Shown piece by piece: positions 16,721 to 31,258 of a stretch of DNA of 45,402 nt. The position numbers were made by a program, and so were the translations under genes. The stretch comes from Bacillota bacterium (lineage in GTDB: Bacteria; Bacillota_I; Bacilli_A; Acholeplasmatales; Acholeplasmataceae). The DNA lies in assembly GCA_018817915.1 (NCBI GenBank), contig JAHISX010000027.1, positions 1 through 45,402 of the forward strand. The letters are read 5' to 3'. The first letter of the stretch is position 1; every line of letters begins with the position of its first letter. The notes below the pieces were generated by a model. The model was not told the DNA's origin. It saw only the letters and a list, made by a program, of their open reading frames with translations, and did not search any database.

Positions 16721-19657
16721 TCAGTCGATGATTATTTCTACGATAGCTGTTATATCTGGGGATTCTAAAATGTCTACTAAAATATAGTAATCACCTACCG
16801 GTAATAAAACATCAAAATCCCAGAATTCGTCATCAATTAAAGTTCCATTGCTCTGATAAAGATAATCTCTAAATATAATGCTATCAAATTGAATGTAATT
16901 CATTTGGATATGATAAGATCTTTCTTCGGTAATTGAAAAGTCTATCCGTGCTTGATTGATACCTTCACCCAAGAAGACGCGTGGTATATCGTTCAAATCA
17001 ATTGCTTGATAATTTGAACTCGCTTCTGGATCTAAGACTGTGAAATCATAATTAAATGATACGTCACCAAGTATATCTGTACTTATTTCTAATTTATATT
17101 CAATGCCGCTCTTGATATCAAAATAGCAATCAAAGCTTTCATCCTGATCTGTTAACATACACATTTCATTGCTGTTTGCTTCAAATGGATCAGCAAACAA
17201 CATGAAAATTTGTTCTTGACCTAAAGAAATCTTAGTAGCATCTAAGAAGACATGCAATAGTCTATTGTCTTCATTTTCTAAGATATAAATATAATATATA
17301 TTCTCTGCTTCAATCGTGACGCTATATGTTCCTGAATCTAGACTAAGAATTGATTCATCAAACTCAGGTAGGTCATATGGATAAATATACAGTTCAACTT
17401 CTTGATCTAATACAGAATGAATCGCTATATAATAATATCCTGCCTCAGGTATCGTAAATATTTCATTATCACTAAGTAATGTTCCACTACTATCTAAGAC
17501 ACTGACATCTACACCATAGCCTGAGCTTGTTCTAATTCTTGTTCCGCCAGCCTCTAGATAAATACTTGCATAATTGGTTCCAGTATGAAGACGGTATCTT
17601 GTTGTTGATTCAAATTGTGAATATCTTAAGATGTCATCTTTATCTGTTGGTAGATAAAGGATGTCATCTTCTGTTATTGGTTCTATCACAAGAACAGTCT
17701 CTAAAGATACAATACCTTCTCCATAATAAGAGATTTCTTTTGGATTGTAGTAGAAACTATAATCTAATAAACCAGTAATCTCTATTTCATACGTGTAATA
17801 TGTGTCATCGCTATCAAAGTAGAATATTGCAGTGATCAAAGCATCATGTAATCCGTATAAGTTATAATCATCAATAAAATAATCTCCAAGCATACCTAAT
17901 GCGCCACTATTCATCACAACACTGTAAACATGATTTTCAACGATGTTAACTGACTCAATGCCCGTCATTGGGTCAGCAAAATTCGTATTCGCATTGATAA
18001 GTTTCGTAAAATTCGCTACACTTGCAATATCATTGATACTATAATAATCAACAGTCATACCTTTATCTTCAAATGCAAATAGACGATCATCTTTTTCCAT
18101 GATTGTATAAGAACTATAAGATGAACCAAAGATAGACATATTCAAAAACGTTTCATTTTGATTAACACTTAAATTCAAGATGACATCATTTTCTACAGTG
18201 CTCTCAGTTCTCGTATCATAAGATGAAATTGTACCCACTTCTAGTTGTTTGATTTGTGGGTTACTTGCATAATCACTATAGAAGGCATCCATTAATGCTG
18301 TAAACTCTTCTACACCATCACCAGTAATCACTCGTGATAAGTCGTTGGTGCCTTCAATACTTGCTTGAATATCATCATCTAGATAGTTATAAAGTTCTTC
18401 TTCTAAATCATCAGCAAAGAAATTAAGGTCATCTAATATGAATGTTTGTTTTACTTCATTAAAATCAGTAATTCGAATTTGATTGAAATAAGCTAGTGTT
18501 GCTTGAGGCACATCTAAATCCAGTCCAAACGAGGATAAATTAAAATCATCATCAGATAGTTCTCCGTGCTTCACATATTGATCAATGGCTGCATATGCAT
18601 AGGTAGGAGAATAGGTAAGTCTAATTCTTCCAGAATATAAGGCTTGATCATTGGTATCATAGATACCATCTAAATCTCCAGCACCTCCACCATTGTTGTT
18701 ACAAACAACGATATGGTCCCAACCAATAGCTTCAATGATGTTAACAATTAAAATAATGTCTTCTCCATAAACTGGATGGTCGATGTAACTATATACTGAA
18801 CCATGTTCATTAAAAATATCATAACTTTCGGATATGATCTGATCATCGACAACACTTAAGAAAGTCTGTGCCATTGCTTCAGAATCATAAAAATTGATGG
18901 TATATCCTAAACTTGGAACTTCTTGTCCAAGTTCAGTAACTCCATAAGATATATCAAAATGAGAATTGGTTTCAATTGATGTGTAATTTAAAGTGAAATA
19001 ATCATTTAAGCTGTTGATGTATACCGCTTCTTTACCTTCAATAAAAGTAAAGTAGTTATACATTAAATCCTGATTATCCAATGGATCAAAAGTCCCTGCA
19101 TAAGAATACATGAGTTCAGCATATTCTAAGACATCATCATTCATTCCTATTTTAATAAAAGTATGTTCAATACCGTTAGCAGCATCAATGACAATATAAT
19201 TTTCAGGACTTACAAGAAACTTATAGACTAAATCATCATTTGTAGGATCTGGATGAAAGGATTGCCCTATTTCTTGATCTAAGTCATCAGCAATTAAAGC
19301 TCTAACTGATGCAACAAAATCCTTTGTTGTCATCAGTTGTTCTTTATAGCCTTCAGCAACCATATCAAATGAACTTCCTAAGTAAGTAGCAAGCAACTCT
19401 TCTTTCGTATATGTATCATACTGATAGACATCTAAAGCAGTGATATTATGATCATCACTGATTTCAGAGTTCGTATTTACTGCAAGCTCACTTAATCTTT
19501 CTTCATACGCAATCAAGTCATCATAAAAAACCGATAAGTTGTGACTTGTAATATTTATATCATCTGTTGGTTCATCCTTGCATGACATTAACATTACCCC
19601 AAATAAAACGATAAAAATAATGAATATATAAAACTTAACTTGAGTAAAAATTTTCAT
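16721..19657 (-). CDS. Large lipoprotein of unknown function, 978 aa
   Basis: The N-terminus is a signal peptide ending in a lipobox-like MLMSC (Cys26), so this is a membrane-anchored surface protein. I do not recognise the central ~600 residues, which are very acidic and rich in Tyr and Asp. From about residue 690 on, segments such as YRLHTGTNYASIYLEAGG, GYYYIAIHSVLDQEVELYIYP and YHIQMNYIQFD resemble successive jelly-roll (PPC-like) beta domains, a common C-terminal feature of secreted proteins. AGGGGA precedes the ATG. The gene ends with TGA and a bidirectional terminator. It follows the second BspA-like gene but a terminator separates them, so it probably has its own promoter (a TATAAT lies near 19715). 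Confidence 0.8.
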   Translation of the reverse strand: MKIFTQVKFYIFIIFIVLFGVMLMSCKDEPTDDINITSHNLSVFYDDLIAYEERLSELAVNTNSEISDDHNITALDVYQYDTYTKEELLATYLGSSFDMVAEGYKEQLMTTKDFVASVRALIADDLDQEIGQSFHPDPTNDDLVYKFLVSPENYIVIDAANGIEHTFIKIGMNDDVLEYAELMYSYAGTFDPLDNQDLMYNYFTFIEGKEAVYINSLNDYFTLNYTSIETNSHFDISYGVTELGQEVPSLGYTINFYDSEAMAQTFLSVVDDQIISESYDIFNEHGSVYSYIDHPVYGEDIILIVNIIEAIGWDHIVVCNNNGGGAGDLDGIYDTNDQALYSGRIRLTYSPTYAYAAIDQYVKHGELSDDDFNLSSFGLDLDVPQATLAYFNQIRITDFNEVKQTFILDDLNFFADDLEEELYNYLDDDIQASIEGTNDLSRVITGDGVEEFTALMDAFYSDYASNPQIKQLEVGTISSYDTRTESTVENDVILNLSVNQNETFLNMSIFGSSYSSYTIMEKDDRLFAFEDKGMTVDYYSINDIASVANFTKLINANTNFADPMTGIESVNIVENHVYSVVMNSGALGMLGDYFIDDYNLYGLHDALITAIFYFDSDDTYYTYEIEITGLLDYSFYYNPKEISYYGEGIVSLETVLVIEPITEDDILYLPTDKDDILRYSQFESTTRYRLHTGTNYASIYLEAGGTRIRTSSGYGVDVSVLDSSGTLLSDNEIFTIPEAGYYYIAIHSVLDQEVELYIYPYDLPEFDESILSLDSGTYSVTIEAENIYYIYILENEDNRLLHVFLDATKISLGQEQIFMLFADPFEANSNEMCMLTDQDESFDCYFDIKSGIEYKLEISTDILGDVSFNYDFTVLDPEASSNYQAIDLNDIPRVFLGEGINQARIDFSITEERSYHIQMNYIQFDSIIFRDYLYQSNGTLIDDEFWDFDVLLPVGDYYILVDILESPDITAIVEIIID

Positions 19658-19771: not shown

Positions 19772-21406
19772 TTATGATAGTTCTGATATGGGATGTATTT
19801 CTACATATAAGTGAGACCAATGAAAGTCATTAATATAATTTTGATATGAATCATCAGGGACATAGAAAGTTGGTTGAAGCTCTTGCATATCATTATCTGG
19901 ACTGATGTAAACGATCCCCCCATCGATGACTACACTTCTGTGAATGATGATTGTTCTAATCTGACTATCAACAATAAACTTCTCAAGGATATGAGTCGTC
20001 GATGCAGGTATATCTAGTACGGTGAGCTTTTCTGCCCCCATAAAAGCATATCCTCCTATGACATAAAGATTTTCACCTAAATCAATAGTTTCTAGATTTC
20101 TATTATTTGCAAAAGCGTATTGCGAAATAGATCGTGTCTCAACAGGCAAAATATAATGCGTGCCAGTTTTATTTACTGGATAAGAGACAAGATCCTCCCA
20201 ATAATTAAATAAAACACCATCGATCGTTAAAAATCTTGTTGATTCTTCATATATCGCAAATGCTTCAAGTGAAGAAATTTCTTTGAATGCATCTCCTGCA
20301 ATATCATAAAGTGATCCAGGAATCTCAATCAGTTTCAAATGTTGACTATAAAAAGCAAGCTCTCCAATTTCTATAACTCCAGAGGGAATGATATAGTTTT
20401 CAGCAAGTAACCCTGAAGGATAATAGACAAGAAATGTATCATTTTCTGAATAAACCACTTGATTTATAACACGATATTCATCATTTTCATCAAAGGAAAC
20501 ATCAGTTATATTGGGTGATGAATCTAGTATTCTTGGATTAAAGCTAGCTAGTCTAGAAGGAAACTCAATCGTTGTTAACGATTCACAACTTGAAAAAGCA
20601 TAATCTCTAATAACTATATGGTTGGGTTCTGTATAAAATCTATAATCCAAAATGACTTGATATGAATGATAAGTAATACCTCCCAATGTAATTGACTCTA
20701 TGCTTACAACTTCTGAAATTGGGCATCCTAAACTTAAAGTGTAGGTACCTGATTCTATTGAACCAATCGTTATTGAACACGAACCCATATTTGCATCTAC
20801 AATTTCATCATATTGGGACTGACTTATCATCTCTTCTAAAAATCCTTGGTATTCACCATAAAAAGAAACCTTTTCTAATGCTGCTGAATTGGCAAAAGCA
20901 TAAAAATCAATCAATTGAACTGAATTTGGTATTTCAACTTCAATGAATTGGCTATTTTCAAATGCCCGTAAACTAATTTCATTAACTAAATATCCTTGTA
21001 TATGATCAGGTATCGTTAAATATGTTTCATTGCCTGTATATCCTACAATAGATGCTGTCATTGTTAGATCATCAGTTATGAGGGTATATTCTAGATATTG
21101 GTTTTCAAATACTGCTCTTAATGTAAGATCGCTAGTTACTTGAAATCTTTGATTATGGATGCTTGTTCCATCATCCCAACCTATAAAGAGAAAACCTTCT
21201 TTTTCAATAACAGGCAAGTAAATATCAGTACCAACTAAAAGATCATCAAGTGAAAGATAAATACTACCATCTTCATTCTCTAAGGTTATTGTATAACGCG
21301 AAAGATCAACCACATCTATTATCTCTTCAGGATCATTATTACATCCGGATAAAAGAAAAATAACAAGTATACTTAATATGAACTTACTGATGTTTAAATA
21401 TCTCAT
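19772..21406 (-). CDS. BspA-like leucine-rich-repeat lipoprotein (copy 2)
   Basis: This 544-residue surface lipoprotein has exactly the same length and domain order as copy 1 (3436-5070). A signal peptide ends at LLSGC (Cys22). An InlB B-repeat-like module follows (GFLFIGWDDG at ~70, TLRAVFENQYLEY at ~95). BspA-type repeats then carry motifs such as IPNSVQLIDFYAFANSAALE and LGENLYVIGGYAFMGAEKL. The protein ends with FYVPDDSYQNYIND and ISEL, again like copy 1. Such proteins commonly bind host or extracellular ligands. AGGAGGGG precedes the ATG by 4 nt. It sits inside a block of lipoprotein genes, with its own terminator at 19733-19760. Confidence 0.88.
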   Translation of the reverse strand: MRYLNISKFILSILVIFLLSGCNNDPEEIIDVVDLSRYTITLENEDGSIYLSLDDLLVGTDIYLPVIEKEGFLFIGWDDGTSIHNQRFQVTSDLTLRAVFENQYLEYTLITDDLTMTASIVGYTGNETYLTIPDHIQGYLVNEISLRAFENSQFIEVEIPNSVQLIDFYAFANSAALEKVSFYGEYQGFLEEMISQSQYDEIVDANMGSCSITIGSIESGTYTLSLGCPISEVVSIESITLGGITYHSYQVILDYRFYTEPNHIVIRDYAFSSCESLTTIEFPSRLASFNPRILDSSPNITDVSFDENDEYRVINQVVYSENDTFLVYYPSGLLAENYIIPSGVIEIGELAFYSQHLKLIEIPGSLYDIAGDAFKEISSLEAFAIYEESTRFLTIDGVLFNYWEDLVSYPVNKTGTHYILPVETRSISQYAFANNRNLETIDLGENLYVIGGYAFMGAEKLTVLDIPASTTHILEKFIVDSQIRTIIIHRSVVIDGGIVYISPDNDMQELQPTFYVPDDSYQNYINDFHWSHLYVEIHPISELS

Positions 21407-21551: not shown

Positions 21552-22760
21552 TTAATTTTCTTTAATGATTGCTAATATTTCTAAGCATTTCTCTTTGATT
21601 AAATCCGGGGTAAGATTTTCTATAGACAATATATTTTCTTTACTGCTAAGATCCTTATACGCTTGTACCAGCTGACTAAAAGTGATGTCACCTGTAAATT
21701 CTTCAGGGAAATTAAATTCACTCAATTCTGTTTCTGATAAGTTTTTTTGAATATTTACTGAATAATAGTTGCTTCCATTGGGATAAGCCATAATGTTAAA
21801 GTCTGAGAAGACTCTATATCCAGCATTATACACTGAGCTATAAGGTCTAAGAAAATAATCATTATAAGTCAACTGATCCCATCCATCCATAAAGTATAAA
21901 CTAAACTGCAGCAAATAATCTTCAAGGGCATATGTTAAAAAAGTAACACACTCCATATCGTGATATAAAGATACGGAATACTTTGAGTTATGTTGTTCAT
22001 AAAACATTTGAGTTTCAGGGTCATATATTTCTGTCTCTTTCGCACCATTGTCTAAAGTATAGCCGATATGACGACCTGTATTGATATCGATGTATTTAAA
22101 TGAATACTCATCATTTGAAACATATGAATAAGCTCTATAAATATCATTAAACAAGTAATTATAAACTAATTTCCCTGTATTCGGATAATAGAAACTTGCT
22201 TCAAACTCAAGATTATCGGGACTAATGTTAAAAATAAAAGAACTCTTAATGCTGATAATTCCTTGTACGTCTGAAGTGTAGGTAACTGTTTGATCGTAAT
22301 ATCCACCATACGCATCAAACCCATAACTTCTATTGGTTATTTGATAAGTTATATTCGTATTGGAATCTTTGTATAAATCATTACCCATGTCAATCATCGA
22401 CGTATAAAATTCTAACAGATCAAAGTAATACGAAACCACTCTACTTGGATTTACGATAGGAATCGCATCATTATCCGTGATTGGATCTATTCTTGATATT
22501 TGTTCTCTTGGATATGTATTTCCAGTATTGAGATAAATTCTGTCTTCATTTTTATTTTCAGCAATCGTTAATTGATATGCCTCTAAATTTTCACGATAAG
22601 TGATGACATAATCACTAAATGATTGTAGATCAATATCGCATGTGTCTTGACACACCTTGATATCGTGATCAAATGATTCAAGTATGACTTCTTTCGAACT
22701 TGTACACCCTGTTAAAAATGCAAGACCTAAAATAAGTAAACCAATATATAATTTTCTCAT
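21552..22760 (-). CDS. Lipoprotein of unknown family, tandem copy B, 402 aa
   Basis: The start at 22760 has GGGGG upstream and gives a signal peptide ending at FLTGC, followed by TSSKE. The mature protein begins with CQDTCDIDLQSF, a CxxxC pair, then a helix (YRENLEAYQLTIAE), a beta-rich middle (SFIFNISPDNLEFEASFYYP), and a helical tail ending in NLTPDLIKEKCLEILAIIKEN. I do not recognise the family. It aligns along its whole length with the neighbouring gene at 22797-24014, so the two arose by tandem duplication; the gap is 36 bp and they are probably co-transcribed. The role is unknown; attachment to the outer face of the membrane is likely. Confidence 0.82.
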   Translation of the reverse strand: MRKLYIGLLILGLAFLTGCTSSKEVILESFDHDIKVCQDTCDIDLQSFSDYVITYRENLEAYQLTIAENKNEDRIYLNTGNTYPREQISRIDPITDNDAIPIVNPSRVVSYYFDLLEFYTSMIDMGNDLYKDSNTNITYQITNRSYGFDAYGGYYDQTVTYTSDVQGIISIKSSFIFNISPDNLEFEASFYYPNTGKLVYNYLFNDIYRAYSYVSNDEYSFKYIDINTGRHIGYTLDNGAKETEIYDPETQMFYEQHNSKYSVSLYHDMECVTFLTYALEDYLLQFSLYFMDGWDQLTYNDYFLRPYSSVYNAGYRVFSDFNIMAYPNGSNYYSVNIQKNLSETELSEFNFPEEFTGDITFSQLVQAYKDLSSKENILSIENLTPDLIKEKCLEILAIIKEN

Positions 22761-22796
22761 ATGTTCCCCCTTCATATTAATTTATATCTCGTCATT

Positions 22797-24014
22797 TTAA
22801 TCTAAGTAATTTTCGCTCAATAATGATAAGACTTCCAAACACTTTTCTTTAATTAAATCCGGACTAAGATCTTCCATCGATAGTATATTATCATTATCCA
22901 ATAAATCTTCATATGCTTGAACAAGTTGATCAAATGTTATATCGCCTACAAATTCATCAGGAAAATTAAAAGTGCTTAATTCTTCAGTAGTTAATGCTTT
23001 TTGAATATTAACTTGATAATAATTGCTGCTTTGACGATACGTCAAGATGTCAAAATCAGTAAATACTCTTTGGTCGTTATTATATGCGATGCTATAAGGT
23101 GAAACAGAAACATCATTATACGTTAGGCTGTCCCATCCATCCATAAAATGTAAACTGAATTCAAGGAAATTCTCCTCATTCTGATTATCTAAGGATGCGA
23201 CAAACTGCATGTCTTGATAAAAGGCTACATGATCAAAGTTTCCATTCTTTTCATAAAACATTTGTGTATCTGGATTGTAGATTTGAGTGACTTCATTATC
23301 ATTTGTTAAGTTGTAGCTAATATAATGGCCAGTACTCGTGTTGATATATTGGAATGAATAATTATCATCTGCAAAATATGAATACCCTCGATATACATTA
23401 TTGGCGTAAGACATATATTGATAACGATCAGAACTAGGGAAATAGATGATTGATTCAAATGCAATATGCTCAAGGTTTAGGTTGAAACTAAAGTAAACAT
23501 AACTTTCTGTAGCCTCTGATGCATTGGTTGTTAGAAATAATCTATGGGTGTAATATCCACTAAGATCATCAAAGCCATAACTTCTATCTGTAATTTGATA
23601 TAGATCATTTGACACCGGATTACTATAGTTGTCTCCACCCTCAGAGACATAAAGTGATATGACTTCTATGTAACTGAATATAAGTGCAAATCCATTGCTG
23701 TGCAATGTAGTGGGAATTGCACTATTATCTGTTATAGGATCTGAAACTGGAATTTGAAGTCTTGTGTAATTGCTTTGACTAACTAAAAATTCTGATTCTT
23801 GATTGCTGTTTTCAGCAATTGTTAATTCATAAGCCGCTAAAGCATCTCTATAAGCACTCAAATTATCACTGAAAGTTTGAAGATCAGTACTACAAGTGTC
23901 TTGACATGTATTAAAATCAACATCCAATGTCCCAAATATTGATTCTTTGGAACTGGTGCACCCAGTTAAAACGGTAATGATTATTGCAAATAAAAGAACT
24001 ATAACTTTTTTCAT
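22797..24014 (-). CDS. Lipoprotein of unknown family, tandem copy A, 405 aa
   Basis: The start at 24014 is chosen because GGAGGA lies 5 nt upstream. The signal peptide ends at VLTGC, again followed by TSSKE. As in copy B, a CxxxC pair (CQDTCSTDLQTF) starts the mature region, followed by AYRDALAAYELTIAENSN, a beta-rich middle with SYGFDDLSGYY and FHFMDGWD-like aromatic motifs, and the tail DLSPDLIKEKCLEVL. The shared blocks are spread over the full length, which argues for a whole-gene duplication followed by divergence. It is the upstream gene of the pair. Function unknown; the paired cysteines could form a disulfide. Confidence 0.82.
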   Translation of the reverse strand: MKKVIVLLFAIIITVLTGCTSSKESIFGTLDVDFNTCQDTCSTDLQTFSDNLSAYRDALAAYELTIAENSNQESEFLVSQSNYTRLQIPVSDPITDNSAIPTTLHSNGFALIFSYIEVISLYVSEGGDNYSNPVSNDLYQITDRSYGFDDLSGYYTHRLFLTTNASEATESYVYFSFNLNLEHIAFESIIYFPSSDRYQYMSYANNVYRGYSYFADDNYSFQYINTSTGHYISYNLTNDNEVTQIYNPDTQMFYEKNGNFDHVAFYQDMQFVASLDNQNEENFLEFSLHFMDGWDSLTYNDVSVSPYSIAYNNDQRVFTDFDILTYRQSSNYYQVNIQKALTTEELSTFNFPDEFVGDITFDQLVQAYEDLLDNDNILSMEDLSPDLIKEKCLEVLSLLSENYLD

Positions 24015-24123
24015 ATAATCCTCCATGAGTTTAAATATATATTTTGTAATTAATGGGATATCTTTACTCGTTATTATATCACTTTGTACAATTGTTTCAA
24101 TAGATACTAATATATTTCTTTAT

Positions 24124-26525: not shown

Positions 26526-28571
26526 ATGAGAAAACTACTCATCTTCGTGGGTGTGATGCTTCTGTTGCTTGCATCATTCCTTTTTATCCCCAAAACAACA
26601 ACCAATTATGATATGACCATCTACCTTCCTGATGATTCAGGAACGAAACAAGGACTAGAAATCATCAAAGATGAATTCAACGAAGAGTCATCGATTCAAA
26701 TTCTTGTGATGGCTATCACATCAACTGATCTAATTTTTTTGATGAATTCAATTGAATCTGTATCTTTAGTCAAAAATGTCATCTGGTTAGATGACTATGT
26801 TGACTTATCTTTAGTTCCTATAGAATTTATTGATTCACAAACGCTTGCTCCATTTTATCAAGATGGAGATGCGCTTTTTACAATCATCTTTGCTACGGAT
26901 GCTTATGACACTGATCTAGAAACATCAATCAACTCAATTAAAGATATCTTATCTGATTATGAGATTCACTTAAGAGGTGATGTTTTAGCTAACATTCAAG
27001 CTAGAACGGTTGCTAAGGGTGAAGTTACTAAAATTATGTATTTGATCATCCCGATCATCTTAATCATTTTACTTCTAGCATCACATGCTTGGATTGAACC
27101 AATTTTAGTCCTAATTACTTTAGGTGTTGCTGTTCTATTTAATATATTCACTAATGGATTACTCCCTAATGTATCATTCATCACACGAACGATGGCGCTT
27201 GCGCTTCAGCTTGCCTTATCGATTGATTATGCATTATTTATGATTCATCGGTTTTACGAGGAAAGGAAGACCAATACAGCTCACGATGCTGCAATGCTTT
27301 CTAGAAAACACGCATTTAAATCCATTACTGCTTCAGCTTTAACAACAATCGCAGGGTTTACTGCTCTATTCTTTATGAAGTATCAAATTGGATTCGATAT
27401 CGGACTAGTCTTATCTAAAGGTATCATCTTCAGTTATCTATCGACCATGATTATTTTACCAACACTCCTTGTCTGGTTTGATCCATTAATTCAAAAGACA
27501 AAGCATGGTATGCTCATTCCCTCATTTAAAAAATTCTTTAAGCTTCAATATAAGATTAGATACCTCTTATTCTTTATTTTGGTTACATCTATTGGATTAG
27601 GTGCTTACTTTCAAACACATACAACCTATATTTATGGATCTAGCACGGTCGGAGGTTCTGTAAGTACACTTTCAACAGATCAAGCTTTAATTAGAGAAAG
27701 ATTCGGATACAACAACCAGCTTGTCATCTTATTTCCTAATGAAACGGTCAATCAAGAAGTTCAACTTTCGGCATCTCTACTAGCAAATACGGATATCACA
27801 AATGTTCAAGCACTTGTTACAAGTGTTGATCCAAACATTCCAAGGGAATTCTTACCTGTTGAGCTTGTTGATCAATTTGTGGGAACAAATTATTCTAGAA
27901 TCATTATCACAACTTCTCTATATCAAGAAAATGCTGCACTCTATTCATTTGTTGATGACTTAAATGATATCATCTCTTCAGAGTATGATGAGTTCTATAT
28001 CGTCGGTAATGCATCAGCATTAACGGATATTAGAACATCTATACTCGATCAAAATCTATTGATCACACTTTTGACAATCATCTCTGTTGGCGTGATTGTA
28101 GGTATCATCTTTAAATCATTTACAATTCCAATCCTATTAGTAGGTATCATACAAGGTGCCGTTTGGATTAATCTTTCTATTCTATACTTCATGCATACAG
28201 AAGTCATCTACATAGGCTATTTGGTTGTTATGAGTATTCAATTAGGAGCGACGATTGACTACGCAGTTCTTCTAACCAATAGGTACTTAGACGAAAGGAA
28301 GCTCCTACCAAAGAAAGAAGCCATGCTAGAAGCCTATTCCAAATCTTCAATTTCAATATTGATTTCAGGAACAATCTTAACGATTGCAGGTTTTGTTGAA
28401 GGATTGTTTTCAGATATTGATTCAGTTACTGATATTGGTCTTTTATTAGGTAAAGGGGCAATGATTTCATCGTTGATGATTTTCATCTTCTTACCTACTG
28501 CACTCGTCCTTTTAGATAAAATCATTGTTAAACAACCTAAAAAGACTAAAAATGTGGTCAAAATGACTTGA
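26526..28571 (+). CDS. MMPL/RND-superfamily exporter (copy 1)
   Basis: The 681-residue protein is a membrane exporter driven by the proton gradient, of the MMPL type. Two similar halves each contain one N-terminal helix, an extracytoplasmic loop (residues ~25-165 and ~365-505) and a five-helix bundle. The conserved transmembrane Asp pattern appears in both: SIDYALFMIHRFYEER and ATIDYAVLLTNRYLDER. Substrates of the family are mostly lipids, siderophores or drugs; none can be named here. GAGGTGA precedes the ATG. Control by the divergent TetR protein is likely. The stop is TGA. The first small-RNA candidate begins about 80 bases further on. Confidence 0.92.
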   Translation: MRKLLIFVGVMLLLLASFLFIPKTTTNYDMTIYLPDDSGTKQGLEIIKDEFNEESSIQILVMAITSTDLIFLMNSIESVSLVKNVIWLDDYVDLSLVPIEFIDSQTLAPFYQDGDALFTIIFATDAYDTDLETSINSIKDILSDYEIHLRGDVLANIQARTVAKGEVTKIMYLIIPIILIILLLASHAWIEPILVLITLGVAVLFNIFTNGLLPNVSFITRTMALALQLALSIDYALFMIHRFYEERKTNTAHDAAMLSRKHAFKSITASALTTIAGFTALFFMKYQIGFDIGLVLSKGIIFSYLSTMIILPTLLVWFDPLIQKTKHGMLIPSFKKFFKLQYKIRYLLFFILVTSIGLGAYFQTHTTYIYGSSTVGGSVSTLSTDQALIRERFGYNNQLVILFPNETVNQEVQLSASLLANTDITNVQALVTSVDPNIPREFLPVELVDQFVGTNYSRIIITTSLYQENAALYSFVDDLNDIISSEYDEFYIVGNASALTDIRTSILDQNLLITLLTIISVGVIVGIIFKSFTIPILLVGIIQGAVWINLSILYFMHTEVIYIGYLVVMSIQLGATIDYAVLLTNRYLDERKLLPKKEAMLEAYSKSSISILISGTILTIAGFVEGLFSDIDSVTDIGLLLGKGAMISSLMIFIFLPTALVLLDKIIVKQPKKTKNVVKMT

Positions 28572-28574
28572 TTT

Positions 28575-28652
28575 TAACACACACTATCATAGTTTCTCAT
28601 AAAATAACATAATCCTTAACAAATGCTTAATTTGGGTTTACAATGTAAGTGT
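28575..28652 (+). repeat. Direct repeat, copy 1 (promoter block of sRNA candidate 1)
   Basis: TTAACACACACTATCATAGT and the bases to AAGTG at 28652 match the block at 28831-28909 over most positions. The shared elements are the palindrome ACTATCATAGT (28584-28594) and the promoter TTAACA-N17-TACAAT (28617-28645). The two copies are about 256 bp apart. Confidence 0.85.
28617..28645 (+). promoter_or_regulatory. Promoter of sRNA candidate 1
   Basis: TTAACA (28617-28622), a 17-bp spacer and TACAAT (28640-28645). The same hexamers and spacing are kept in copy 2 although the spacer itself differs, which suggests selection for the promoter. Confidence 0.7.
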
Positions 28653-28789
28653 ATCTTAGTTTAAAGCATATTTATGATAAACCGTGCCAAAGTTAATACC
28701 ACAAATAAGAACTTAAAACTAAAATCATTTTTTTCTCCCCTATACAAAAAAAGATGCCGGGACAAAACCCAAAAGAGCGTCTTTTTTTT
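28652..28789 (+). ncRNA. Candidate small RNA 1
   Basis: The region has a conserved promoter, no convincing reading frame and an intrinsic terminator, giving an RNA of about 140 nt. The 5' part (28654-28667) can pair with 28712-28725 and an inner segment (28671-28677) with 28700-28706, making a long imperfect hairpin. A single-stranded UCUCCCC (28734-28740) lies between this hairpin and the terminator. C-rich runs of this kind bind ribosome sites in known Gram-positive small RNAs (FsrA, RsaE). A 6S-like role is an alternative, because of the rod shape. Existence of the RNA is inferred. Confidence 0.55.
28746..28789 (+). terminator. Terminator of sRNA candidate 1
   Basis: AAAAAAAGATGC (28746-28757) pairs with GCGTC and the following T run (28777-28789) with one wobble; GGG (28759-28761) and CCC (28768-28770) extend the stem. 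Eight T follow. It may also end read-through from the MMPL gene. Confidence 0.75.
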
Positions 28790-28830
28790 AATGTAATTTT
28801 CTCATTATATTCACATACTTGAGATCTCAA

Positions 28831-28909
28831 TTAACACATACTATCATAGTTTTTCATAAAGTCCCATAATGCTTAACATTTAAAACAATTAGGTATACAA
28901 TCATAAGTG
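28831..28909 (+). repeat. Direct repeat, copy 2 (promoter block of sRNA candidate 2)
   Basis: This block matches 28575-28652, including TTAACACATACTATCATAGT, the palindrome at 28840-28850 and the promoter at 28873-28901, and ends in the shared AAGTG. Most differences are single substitutions plus one inserted base. Confidence 0.85.
28873..28901 (+). promoter_or_regulatory. Promoter of sRNA candidate 2
   Basis: TTAACA (28873-28878), a 17-bp spacer and TACAAT (28896-28901), identical in hexamers and spacing to copy 1. Confidence 0.7.
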
Positions 28910-29075
28910 AAAAGCAAATCCCCTTGTTTATGCGATTCAATCTTGACTAAGAATGAGCGTCGCTTAACATATAATTCATCAAAAAGCAGTATTACAAATA
29001 GAACAGTAAGAACTTCATTTTCTCTCCCAGAAAAGAAAAAAAGCCAATGGCAATTGCTATTGGCTTCTTTTTTAT
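28908..29075 (+). ncRNA. Candidate small RNA 2
   Basis: About 165 nt between the conserved promoter and a strong terminator. The body differs from copy 1 in its middle but shares ACAAATA-GAAC and the pyrimidine-rich CATTTT-CTCTCCC tract; UCUCUCCC lies at 29021-29028 and a second C run (CCCC) at 28920-28923. A GTG-led frame of 64 codons runs through it, but it has no ribosome site and continues through the terminator into the opposite gene, so I do not treat it as a gene. The RNA is inferred from structure only. Confidence 0.5.
29034..29075. terminator. Bidirectional terminator, sRNA 2 and MMPL copy 2
   Basis: AAGCCAATGGC (from 29041) pairs with GCTATTGGCTT (from 29055) with one mismatch around AATT, flanked by A-rich and T-rich runs. 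On the plus strand it ends the RNA candidate, and on the minus strand the MMPL gene whose stop is at 29076. Confidence 0.85.
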
Positions 29076-31223
29076 CTATTTCTTTTTCTTTTCTATTCTA
29101 AAGATTGTAGGAAGTAATGTTAATGTGACAAAGACACTCACAACCATACTAACCCACATTAAGATAGAGACATTAAAATGAATATTTAATGGTGAAAACA
29201 TTAAGACAGTTAATCCTAAAGAAATACCGAGGGCATTTGCGATGATTGGTCTAGATGAATTCTGATAAGCTTTATCAACGGCTTCATGTCTGGAATTACC
29301 TTCTTTTACGTAGTACTTATAGACACTTGAGAAATGGACTGCATAATCTATACCAACACCAATGGTGATACTAAAGATAATAACTGTTGTAATATTTAAT
29401 GAAATACCTGTAATACCTAAGAATGCATATAGAGCACCTACAGTAACTACGATAGGAATTAAGCTTGCAACAGCAATCTTAATATTTCTAAGTGTCGCAA
29501 CCATCATCAATAAGACAACACCTAAAGCAAGTAAAATACTATTGATTTGCATCGTTGTGATATTGACATTTAAGTCTCTCATCAAATACTGAACACCAGT
29601 AACTGATGCATTCGTATTGTTAAGTTCAACTGTATTTTCAATAGTAAACAATGTGCTATTTTCCATATCGCTAGGGAAAACTAGAAGACGTACAACTTGA
29701 TGATCTGTTGAAATTAAATTGTGAATAACACTTTGCTCATCAGCTGCAATCGCAGTATACACCACATTCATGATTGGATCACTTGGTATTTCTCCAACAA
29801 ATGTCATTTGATAAAATATATTCATTAAGGCGTAAGGATTTACAACTTTATTAACTTCATCTAAGCTATTGAGTTGATCAGCAAGAAGATTAATCTCATT
29901 CATTGAATCAACCGTTAAGGGACTACCTTCTAATTCCACATAGACATAAATCGGTATAGATCCACCATTAACTTCTTGAATCTTTTCAGCATTTTGAGCA
30001 ACAATGGTTGAGTCTTTATAAATCATGAGCATATTAAACTCATTGTTAATTTGTCCACTAAAAATAAAGAAGTTAAAAGCAATCAATATAACAATTAATA
30101 AGGATGGAATACCCCATAATTTTTTTAATCCTTTAGATAAATCAACTTTCTTAACATGAACCTTTTTAGGAAGCACATTAATGTTATTAGATAAAATAAG
30201 TGGTAACACATACCATGTTGCTATCCCAGCAAGTAAGATACCTAATGCACTATAAACCGCTAAATCTTTAACGCTATCTGTACTCATCGATAATAAGCTT
30301 AAGAATCCAGCCATTGATGTTAATGTTGTTACAATCATGGGAATACCCACAATTTTCAATGTGTTATTTAAAGCGGTCTTTGTATTTTTCCCTTCTTTTT
30401 TAGAGTCTTGATAATGAGACATGAAGTGAAGTCCATCTGCTGAACCGATAACAATAATGAATATCGGAACAACCGCTGTTAAGATTGACACTTCATTACC
30501 TAACCATCCGATAATCCCTAAAGTCCATAATGATCCGATACCAGCAGGGAGCACACTCAACATGGTTGGCTTAAATGCACCAATTTGCCATCTAAATACT
30601 AATAGTATGACGAGCAGTGCCAAAGGGGGGAGCACAAGTAAGATTCTTATAATATAATCTGTAATCTTTGTCTGGTTATATGTATCACCTGATATATAGG
30701 ATTGATAATCATAAGCACTCAAAGTATCTTCTATTTCATGAATGTTTGTCTTACTGAAATCTTCAGTAATAAAAACATTGAAAATCGAATAATATGTGTC
30801 TGTATCTACAACTAAAGGTGAGAACTCGCCAAATCCTAAATAGTAATTTTTAACATAGGTAGGATCCAAAGTCTCAATATCAGTTAAAGACCCACTAGAC
30901 ATAATTTGATCAGGTGCAACGCCTTGAACTGTCGTGACATTAGGAATTGCTCCTAATGCTGTTTGAATGTCATGAAGATCTGCAATCGTTATAGAATCAA
31001 AATTTTCATGTTCGACAACAACTACAATTTGATTCAAACTACCAAATACCTCTTCTTGTTGTAAGATGCGTGTTTCATAGATGGAATCATTGGTCGAAAA
31101 TAATGAAAAATCCGTATTTAATTTAACCATGAAAACTCCAGCAATAGAAAAACCTATGGTTAAGATCAAAAAGATAAACAATGGCTTTTTAAACTTAAAA
31201 ATAATGTTCGTATATTTATTCAT
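29076..31223 (-). CDS. MMPL/RND-superfamily exporter (copy 2)
   Basis: This 715-residue exporter is of the same superfamily as copy 1 but only distantly similar. The start at 31223 has GGAG 6 nt upstream. Both halves show a single helix, an extracytoplasmic loop and a helix bundle. The transmembrane motif reads IGSADGLHFMSHYQ in the first half, with Asp shifted relative to the usual IDY, and IGVGIDYAVHFSSVY in the second. The pattern fits RND proteins of the hopanoid/SSD-like and patched-related type. A perfect TTGACA-N17-TATAAT promoter (31259-31287) suggests strong constitutive expression. It converges on copy 1, with the small-RNA pair between them. Confidence 0.92.
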   Translation of the reverse strand: MNKYTNIIFKFKKPLFIFLILTIGFSIAGVFMVKLNTDFSLFSTNDSIYETRILQQEEVFGSLNQIVVVVEHENFDSITIADLHDIQTALGAIPNVTTVQGVAPDQIMSSGSLTDIETLDPTYVKNYYLGFGEFSPLVVDTDTYYSIFNVFITEDFSKTNIHEIEDTLSAYDYQSYISGDTYNQTKITDYIIRILLVLPPLALLVILLVFRWQIGAFKPTMLSVLPAGIGSLWTLGIIGWLGNEVSILTAVVPIFIIVIGSADGLHFMSHYQDSKKEGKNTKTALNNTLKIVGIPMIVTTLTSMAGFLSLLSMSTDSVKDLAVYSALGILLAGIATWYVLPLILSNNINVLPKKVHVKKVDLSKGLKKLWGIPSLLIVILIAFNFFIFSGQINNEFNMLMIYKDSTIVAQNAEKIQEVNGGSIPIYVYVELEGSPLTVDSMNEINLLADQLNSLDEVNKVVNPYALMNIFYQMTFVGEIPSDPIMNVVYTAIAADEQSVIHNLISTDHQVVRLLVFPSDMENSTLFTIENTVELNNTNASVTGVQYLMRDLNVNITTMQINSILLALGVVLLMMVATLRNIKIAVASLIPIVVTVGALYAFLGITGISLNITTVIIFSITIGVGIDYAVHFSSVYKYYVKEGNSRHEAVDKAYQNSSRPIIANALGISLGLTVLMFSPLNIHFNVSILMWVSMVVSVFVTLTLLPTIFRIEKKKK

Positions 31224-31258
31224 AAATAGCTCCATTCATTCGGATATGCAACGTTACT

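Follow-up and report, generated by a model that had tools for sequence, protein, structure and literature searches.

In Listeria monocytogenes, the multicopy small RNAs (sRNAs) LhrC1-5 (RF00616) bind Shine-Dalgarno (SD) regions through accessible, CU-rich CUCCC motifs; their targets include a surface protein, and their transcription depends on LisR, a response regulator that acts through a promoter element located some 53 to 75 nt upstream (about -53 to -75; PMC4132741, PMC5880928). RoxS of Bacillus subtilis and RsaE of Staphylococcus aureus pair with SD sequences through C-rich regions. RoxS contains CCCCUUUGUU twice and is activated by the response regulator ResD from about -65 (PMC4409812). 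The csRNAs of streptococci are several siblings under a single response regulator, CiaR, which binds a phased direct repeat TTTAAG-N5-TTTAAG, and they have an unpaired region in which an anti-SD sequence is combined with a CAU anti-start codon (PMC3091779). The literature searched contained no report on trans-acting sRNAs from Acholeplasma-like bacteria.

The stretch of DNA analysed here (the window) is a complete contig of 45.4 kb from a 2.1-Mb draft genome. Between two convergent genes for MMPL exporters, it probably carries two tandem sibling genes, A and B, for trans-acting sRNAs that block translation, both derived from one duplicated promoter-RNA-terminator unit. This reading is preferred because of the anatomy of the locus and the unequal conservation between the copies. 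Two related promoter-RNA-terminator units stand in tandem, as in the class of tandem-sibling sRNAs. The original prediction of a duplicated sRNA gene is therefore supported, in that promoter, body and terminator are all repeated and neither copy has an SD-like site or a convincing frame.

Exporter 1 (26526..28571, + strand; PF03176, 1.1e-42) ends with its stop codon 3 nt ahead of promoter block A, and exporter 2 (29076..31235, - strand; PF03176, 1.4e-30) converges on it from the other side. A repeat search recovered the two blocks as a two-copy repeat of 71 nt (28574-28644 and 28831-28901) with 77% identity and a spacing of 257 bp, in agreement with the paired block predicted from the sequence at the outset. 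Their local alignment scores 82, whereas 1000 dinucleotide shuffles reach at most 45.5. Both contain a TTAACA-N17-TACAAT promoter on the + strand, at 28616..28644 in A (predicted start at about 28651) and at 28873..28901 in B (predicted start at about 28908). The hexamer pair alone is unremarkable, with 8 found against 4.5 expected. What is remarkable is the conservation of the hexamers between the copies, rather than their occurrence. Identity between A and B amounts to 36/42 upstream of the -35 and 12/12 in the hexamers, and to 7/17 in the spacer; hexamers and upstream sequence together (48/54) differ from the spacer with a Fisher p of 0.00017. The earlier argument for selection, namely that the hexamers were kept while the spacer changed, thus holds numerically.

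Is it possible that the promoter block alone was duplicated, so that at most one sRNA works, the other copy is decaying, and the terminators serve mainly to end the convergent MMPL mRNAs? The two bodies show no relationship in their 5' halves (324/1000 shuffles align equally well), block A follows closely on exporter 1 with no other terminator behind that gene, terminator B is also usable on the - strand, and no relative searched has kept the pair, all of which is as this alternative would have it. However, it predicts equal divergence of hexamers, spacer and upstream array, which is at odds with the proportions given above, and both copies have kept the 3' module described below together with its predicted accessibility. 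A decaying second copy is accordingly considered unlikely.

The gene for RNA A (28651..28790, + strand) would give about 139 nt including the terminator, with the 5' end placed from the promoter; its 140 nt comprise 16 G, 26 C, 56 A and 42 T. RNA B (28908..29074, + strand) would measure about 166 nt with its terminator, and its z-score is -2.83 (terminator included). Each copy has its own intrinsic terminator, as had been claimed. That of A (28746..28788, + strand; AAAAAAAGATGC..GCGTCTTTTTTTT, with an inner GGG/CCC stem) was missed by the + strand scan but folds into a long stem with interruptions, behind which comes U8. That of B (29041..29073, + strand) was found by the scanner and is strong, with an 11-bp stem at 29041-29066 and a T run; on the - strand it could also terminate exporter 2, the MMPL gene that converges on the locus. 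Apart from the terminators, folding gives weak structures for both RNAs. With the terminators removed, the bodies show a weak relationship that comes from their 3' parts (11/1000 shuffles equally good). A perfect TATAAT (28970-28975) and a TTGACT (28943-28948), 21 nt apart, lie inside RNA B and may mark a second, internal start, from which a B shortened to about 90 nt would be made.

Do the units encode short peptides, for example small membrane or leader peptides, instead of regulatory RNAs? There are short + strand frames of 40 aa (28674-28796) and 64 aa (28907-29101). Both run into or through the terminators, the frames of A and B do not match each other, and no SD-like motif occurs in either RNA; a simple motif scan finds such a motif ahead of 17 of the 32 genes of the window. 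The initial description of roughly 140-170 nt per copy without a convincing frame is borne out, at about 140-165 nt. Between the copies, moreover, the conserved 3' module differs by an indel of about 12 nt, and CAUUUU..CUCCC is complementary to translation starts and follows no codon pattern. The peptide explanation is highly improbable, and the two units are read here as sRNA genes.

The 3' parts of the two RNAs share a module with the features of an anti-AUG and an anti-SD sequence. In A (28706..28739, + strand) it runs as TAAGAACTT..CATTTTTTTCTCCC, followed by CTATAC; in B (29007..29028, + strand) it is TAAGAACTTCATTTTCTCTCCC, with CUCCC in the loop of a hairpin that has a UUUUCU/AGAAAA stem. 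The combination TAAGAACTT..CATTTT..CTCCC occurs exactly twice in the genome, in the two sRNA copies, and is absent from 19 congeners; a reversed control motif has 0 matches. It is a stronger match than the shared ACAAATA-GAAC to which the original prediction had pointed. CUCCCC of A is predicted to be unpaired with a probability of about 1.0, and CUCCC of B with 0.94-1.0.

Written as its target, the module reads GGGAGAGAAAATG for B and GGGGAGAAAAAAATG for A, that is, an SD sequence, a spacer and a start codon. When the motif was placed over 587 ATG starts sampled from this genome, the best register set CAU on AUG and CUCCC on the SD. There the match reached 7.41 of 13 (B) and 8.78 of 15 (A), against at most 5.76 (B) and 6.57 (A) in the remaining registers, a result that is partly expected because SD strength was used in the choice of start codons. 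In comparison with shuffles of the same letters, the upstream part of the motif was equalled in 23/2000 cases for A and in 130/2000 for B, the latter being marginal. The module can be read as an anti-start codon joined to an anti-SD sequence, and it is predicted to be single-stranded.

Upstream of the promoters, CAYA recurs in each block at 10-bp intervals, phased with the -35 TTAACA (28616 in A). Array A (28576..28611, + strand) consists of AACACA, ATCATA, CTCATA and AACATA, with CAYA at 28578, 28588, 28598 and 28608; array B (28833..28868, + strand) consists of AACACA, ATCATA, TTCATA and CCCATA in the same phase. Ahead of the -35, A and B differ at six positions, none of which is a CAYA letter. 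A pattern of three CATA spaced 10 bp apart is matched twice in the window, with 0 expected from shuffles, and the array combined with TTNACA is unique to the locus in the genome, apart from one match with two mismatches, which equals the control count.

Which type of regulator might bind this array? OmpR-type response regulators typically have phased direct repeats adjoining the -35 as their sites; the csRNAs offer an example (PMC3091779). The genome encodes at least seven regulators of this type (PF00486). No CAYA decamer pairs were found near the six response-regulator genes that were scanned. By analogy, the array looks like a response-regulator site. A TetR operator was also considered for the palindrome ACTATCATAGT that lies within array A (28583-28593; 28840-28850 in array B), and was rejected: the stretch from the TetR gene to exporter 1 does not contain the palindrome.

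How does the pair compare with the described sRNAs? With LhrC, A and B share CU-rich anti-SD motifs that are predicted to be unpaired. However, the LhrC model scores 20.8 bits at 28705-28788 (E 1.7) against a gathering threshold of 110, LhrC has five copies as opposed to two here, and the sequence of the CAYA array was found nowhere else. The repeated CCCCUUUGUU of RoxS is not present; RNA B has one CCCCUUGUUU, which is one U shorter, and RNA A has none. There is no match to the RsaE model at E <=10 for copy B or at E <=5 for both copies, RoxS and RsaE are not described as a tandem pair, and their overall sequence is unrelated to that of A and B. The likeness to csRNAs lies in CAUUUU(UU)CUCCC, with its best register at start codons and CUCCC predicted to be unpaired. 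In contrast to csRNAs, A and B lack the NTTAAG-N5-TTTAAG repeat that overlaps the promoter and have four CAYA units at 10-bp intervals instead; csRNAs form two clear stem-loops, whereas A and B have a terminator hairpin and otherwise weak structure, and no csRNA family is matched.

OmrA and OmrB are Gram-negative, Hfq-dependent sRNAs with outer-membrane targets. In Escherichia coli they are tandem siblings with common parts and a divergent middle, for which shared and private targets have been suggested (PMC4211561). A and B are likewise tandem siblings that share parts, but their sequence is unrelated to that of OmrA and OmrB. 6S RNA was rejected as a candidate, with no model match at gathering or permissive thresholds and folds that lack a rod.

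Against Rfam as a whole, both gathering and permissive thresholds returned chance-level terminator matches only. The original statement that the RNAs could not be assigned to a known family has therefore withstood a covariance search, in which no family, 6S included, was found to fit. The proposed search for the promoter block in related genomes came back empty: no related block was detected in 20 genomes of the genus, 88 of the family and 160 of the order, the last set covering about half of the known species. In the family, matches to the block pattern stay at control level (8 outside the genome itself against 7 for the control), and viral contigs contain none. Those weak matches of a block-profile search that were inspected sit in coding genes or at ordinary gene starts; a 90% match ahead of a gene start in one genome (G044) was judged to be due to chance. 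BLAST of the locus against the genus, family and order sets, plasmids and phages gave no homologue above AT-rich noise. That no genome searched has a homologue, and hence that neither covariation nor cross-species conservation backs the pair, counts against the sRNA reading.

Relatives of exporter 1 are present in several congeners, and in nine of these the sRNA locus is absent behind the gene and other genes are found there instead. The closest orthologue, with 87% identity, is in G013; the contig concerned (C96, L053) has its edge 2 nt behind the exporter 1 match, at the very point at which the sRNA locus would start. Behind exporter 2 orthologues, another gene comes next (205-206 aa in L022 and L023, and TetR-like by eye in G007). 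Among 19 congeners, only G007 has exporter 2 itself at high identity (69%); two MAGs that are more distant also have it (62% and 59%), and in the present genome it may be a lateral acquisition. Named MAGs with relatives of exporter 2 carry the labels 'Bacilli bacterium' and 'Candidatus Izemoplasma acidinucleici'; the present genome probably belongs near Acholeplasma.

Given their location between convergent exporters, the RNAs might work chiefly in cis: as antisense or 3' UTR elements of the two MMPL genes, or by forming a transcription roadblock that separates these genes. This is very unlikely: the units are complete from promoter to terminator and, with the upstream array, all lie on one strand; the top predicted pairings include the start of neither MMPL exporter; and the exporter 1 relatives of congeners manage without the locus.

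Targets in trans were predicted on a sample of 648 gene starts from about 0.7 Mb of the genome, in stretches of up to 20 kb. RNA B has a 5' hairpin (28913..28929, + strand; AGCAAAUCCCCUUGUUU) that exposes UCCCC, unpaired with a probability of 0.98-1.0. Over 12 nt, the loop sequence AUCCCCUUGUUU is perfectly complementary to the SD region at the start of gene 16721-19657 (- strand), which encodes a lipoprotein-like protein of 978 aa on the same contig; this pairing, at -19.2 kcal/mol, ranks top among the 648 starts. For the LRR lipoprotein gene 19772-21406, pairing with the 3' motif of B is predicted at -19.8 kcal/mol. Overall, 38 lipoprotein-like starts pair better than the 610 others (p = 9e-6 for A and 4.5e-4 for the 3' motif of B), and the preference is also seen when only the held-out half is considered (p = 0.003 for A and 0.045 for B). 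Controls that keep the C-rich core are equally good in 6/60, 5/60 and 6/60 trials. The preference for lipoprotein genes thus reflects, for the most part, generic complementarity to SD sequences and, because such core-kept controls recover most of the effect, a lipoprotein regulon, or specificity beyond generic SD pairing, is taken as suggestive. Pairing with translation starts in general is better supported than a lipoprotein regulon.

Near the two predicted target genes, the LRR (BspA-like) lipoprotein gene and the 978-aa lipoprotein-like gene, lie two adjacent lipoprotein genes on the - strand (21552-22775 and 22797-24026). They encode about 405 aa each, have similar starts (TGCTSSKE) and no Pfam match, and look like a tandem paralogue pair.

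The similarity of A and B is patchy in a functional way: array, hexamers and anti-SD module are kept, and the spacer and 5' body are not. In the proposed sequence of events, one promoter-RNA-terminator unit would have been duplicated to give A and B. Both would be switched on together by an activator that binds the decamer array and is most likely a response regulator of the OmpR type. The RNAs would then pair through CAU, the U-rich spacer and CUCCC with the translation starts of several mRNAs, the best predicted of which are those of lipoproteins and membrane proteins, and ribosome loading would be blocked. RNA B, with its additional C-rich loop, may have a target preference of its own, such that the siblings would share some targets and split others. 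It is a doubtful further step to view the pair as a lineage-specific, response-regulator-controlled system whose near-universal anti-start and anti-SD modules jointly repress the repertoire of lipoproteins and surface proteins, with targets on the same contig.

A and B would act much like LhrC, RoxS/RsaE and csRNAs, which are sibling or C-rich sRNAs that mask SDs under two-component control; judged by sequence, on the tests made, they are members of none of these families. The kind of control would be a known one, and the pair itself is apparently lineage-specific and unrelated in sequence. If the RNAs are expressed, they would provide a clear case of siblings in which promoter and pairing module are kept while the remainder turns over. 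The C-rich, anti-SD, response-regulator-driven design of Listeria, Bacillus/Staphylococcus and Streptococcus would then extend to Acholeplasma-like bacteria.
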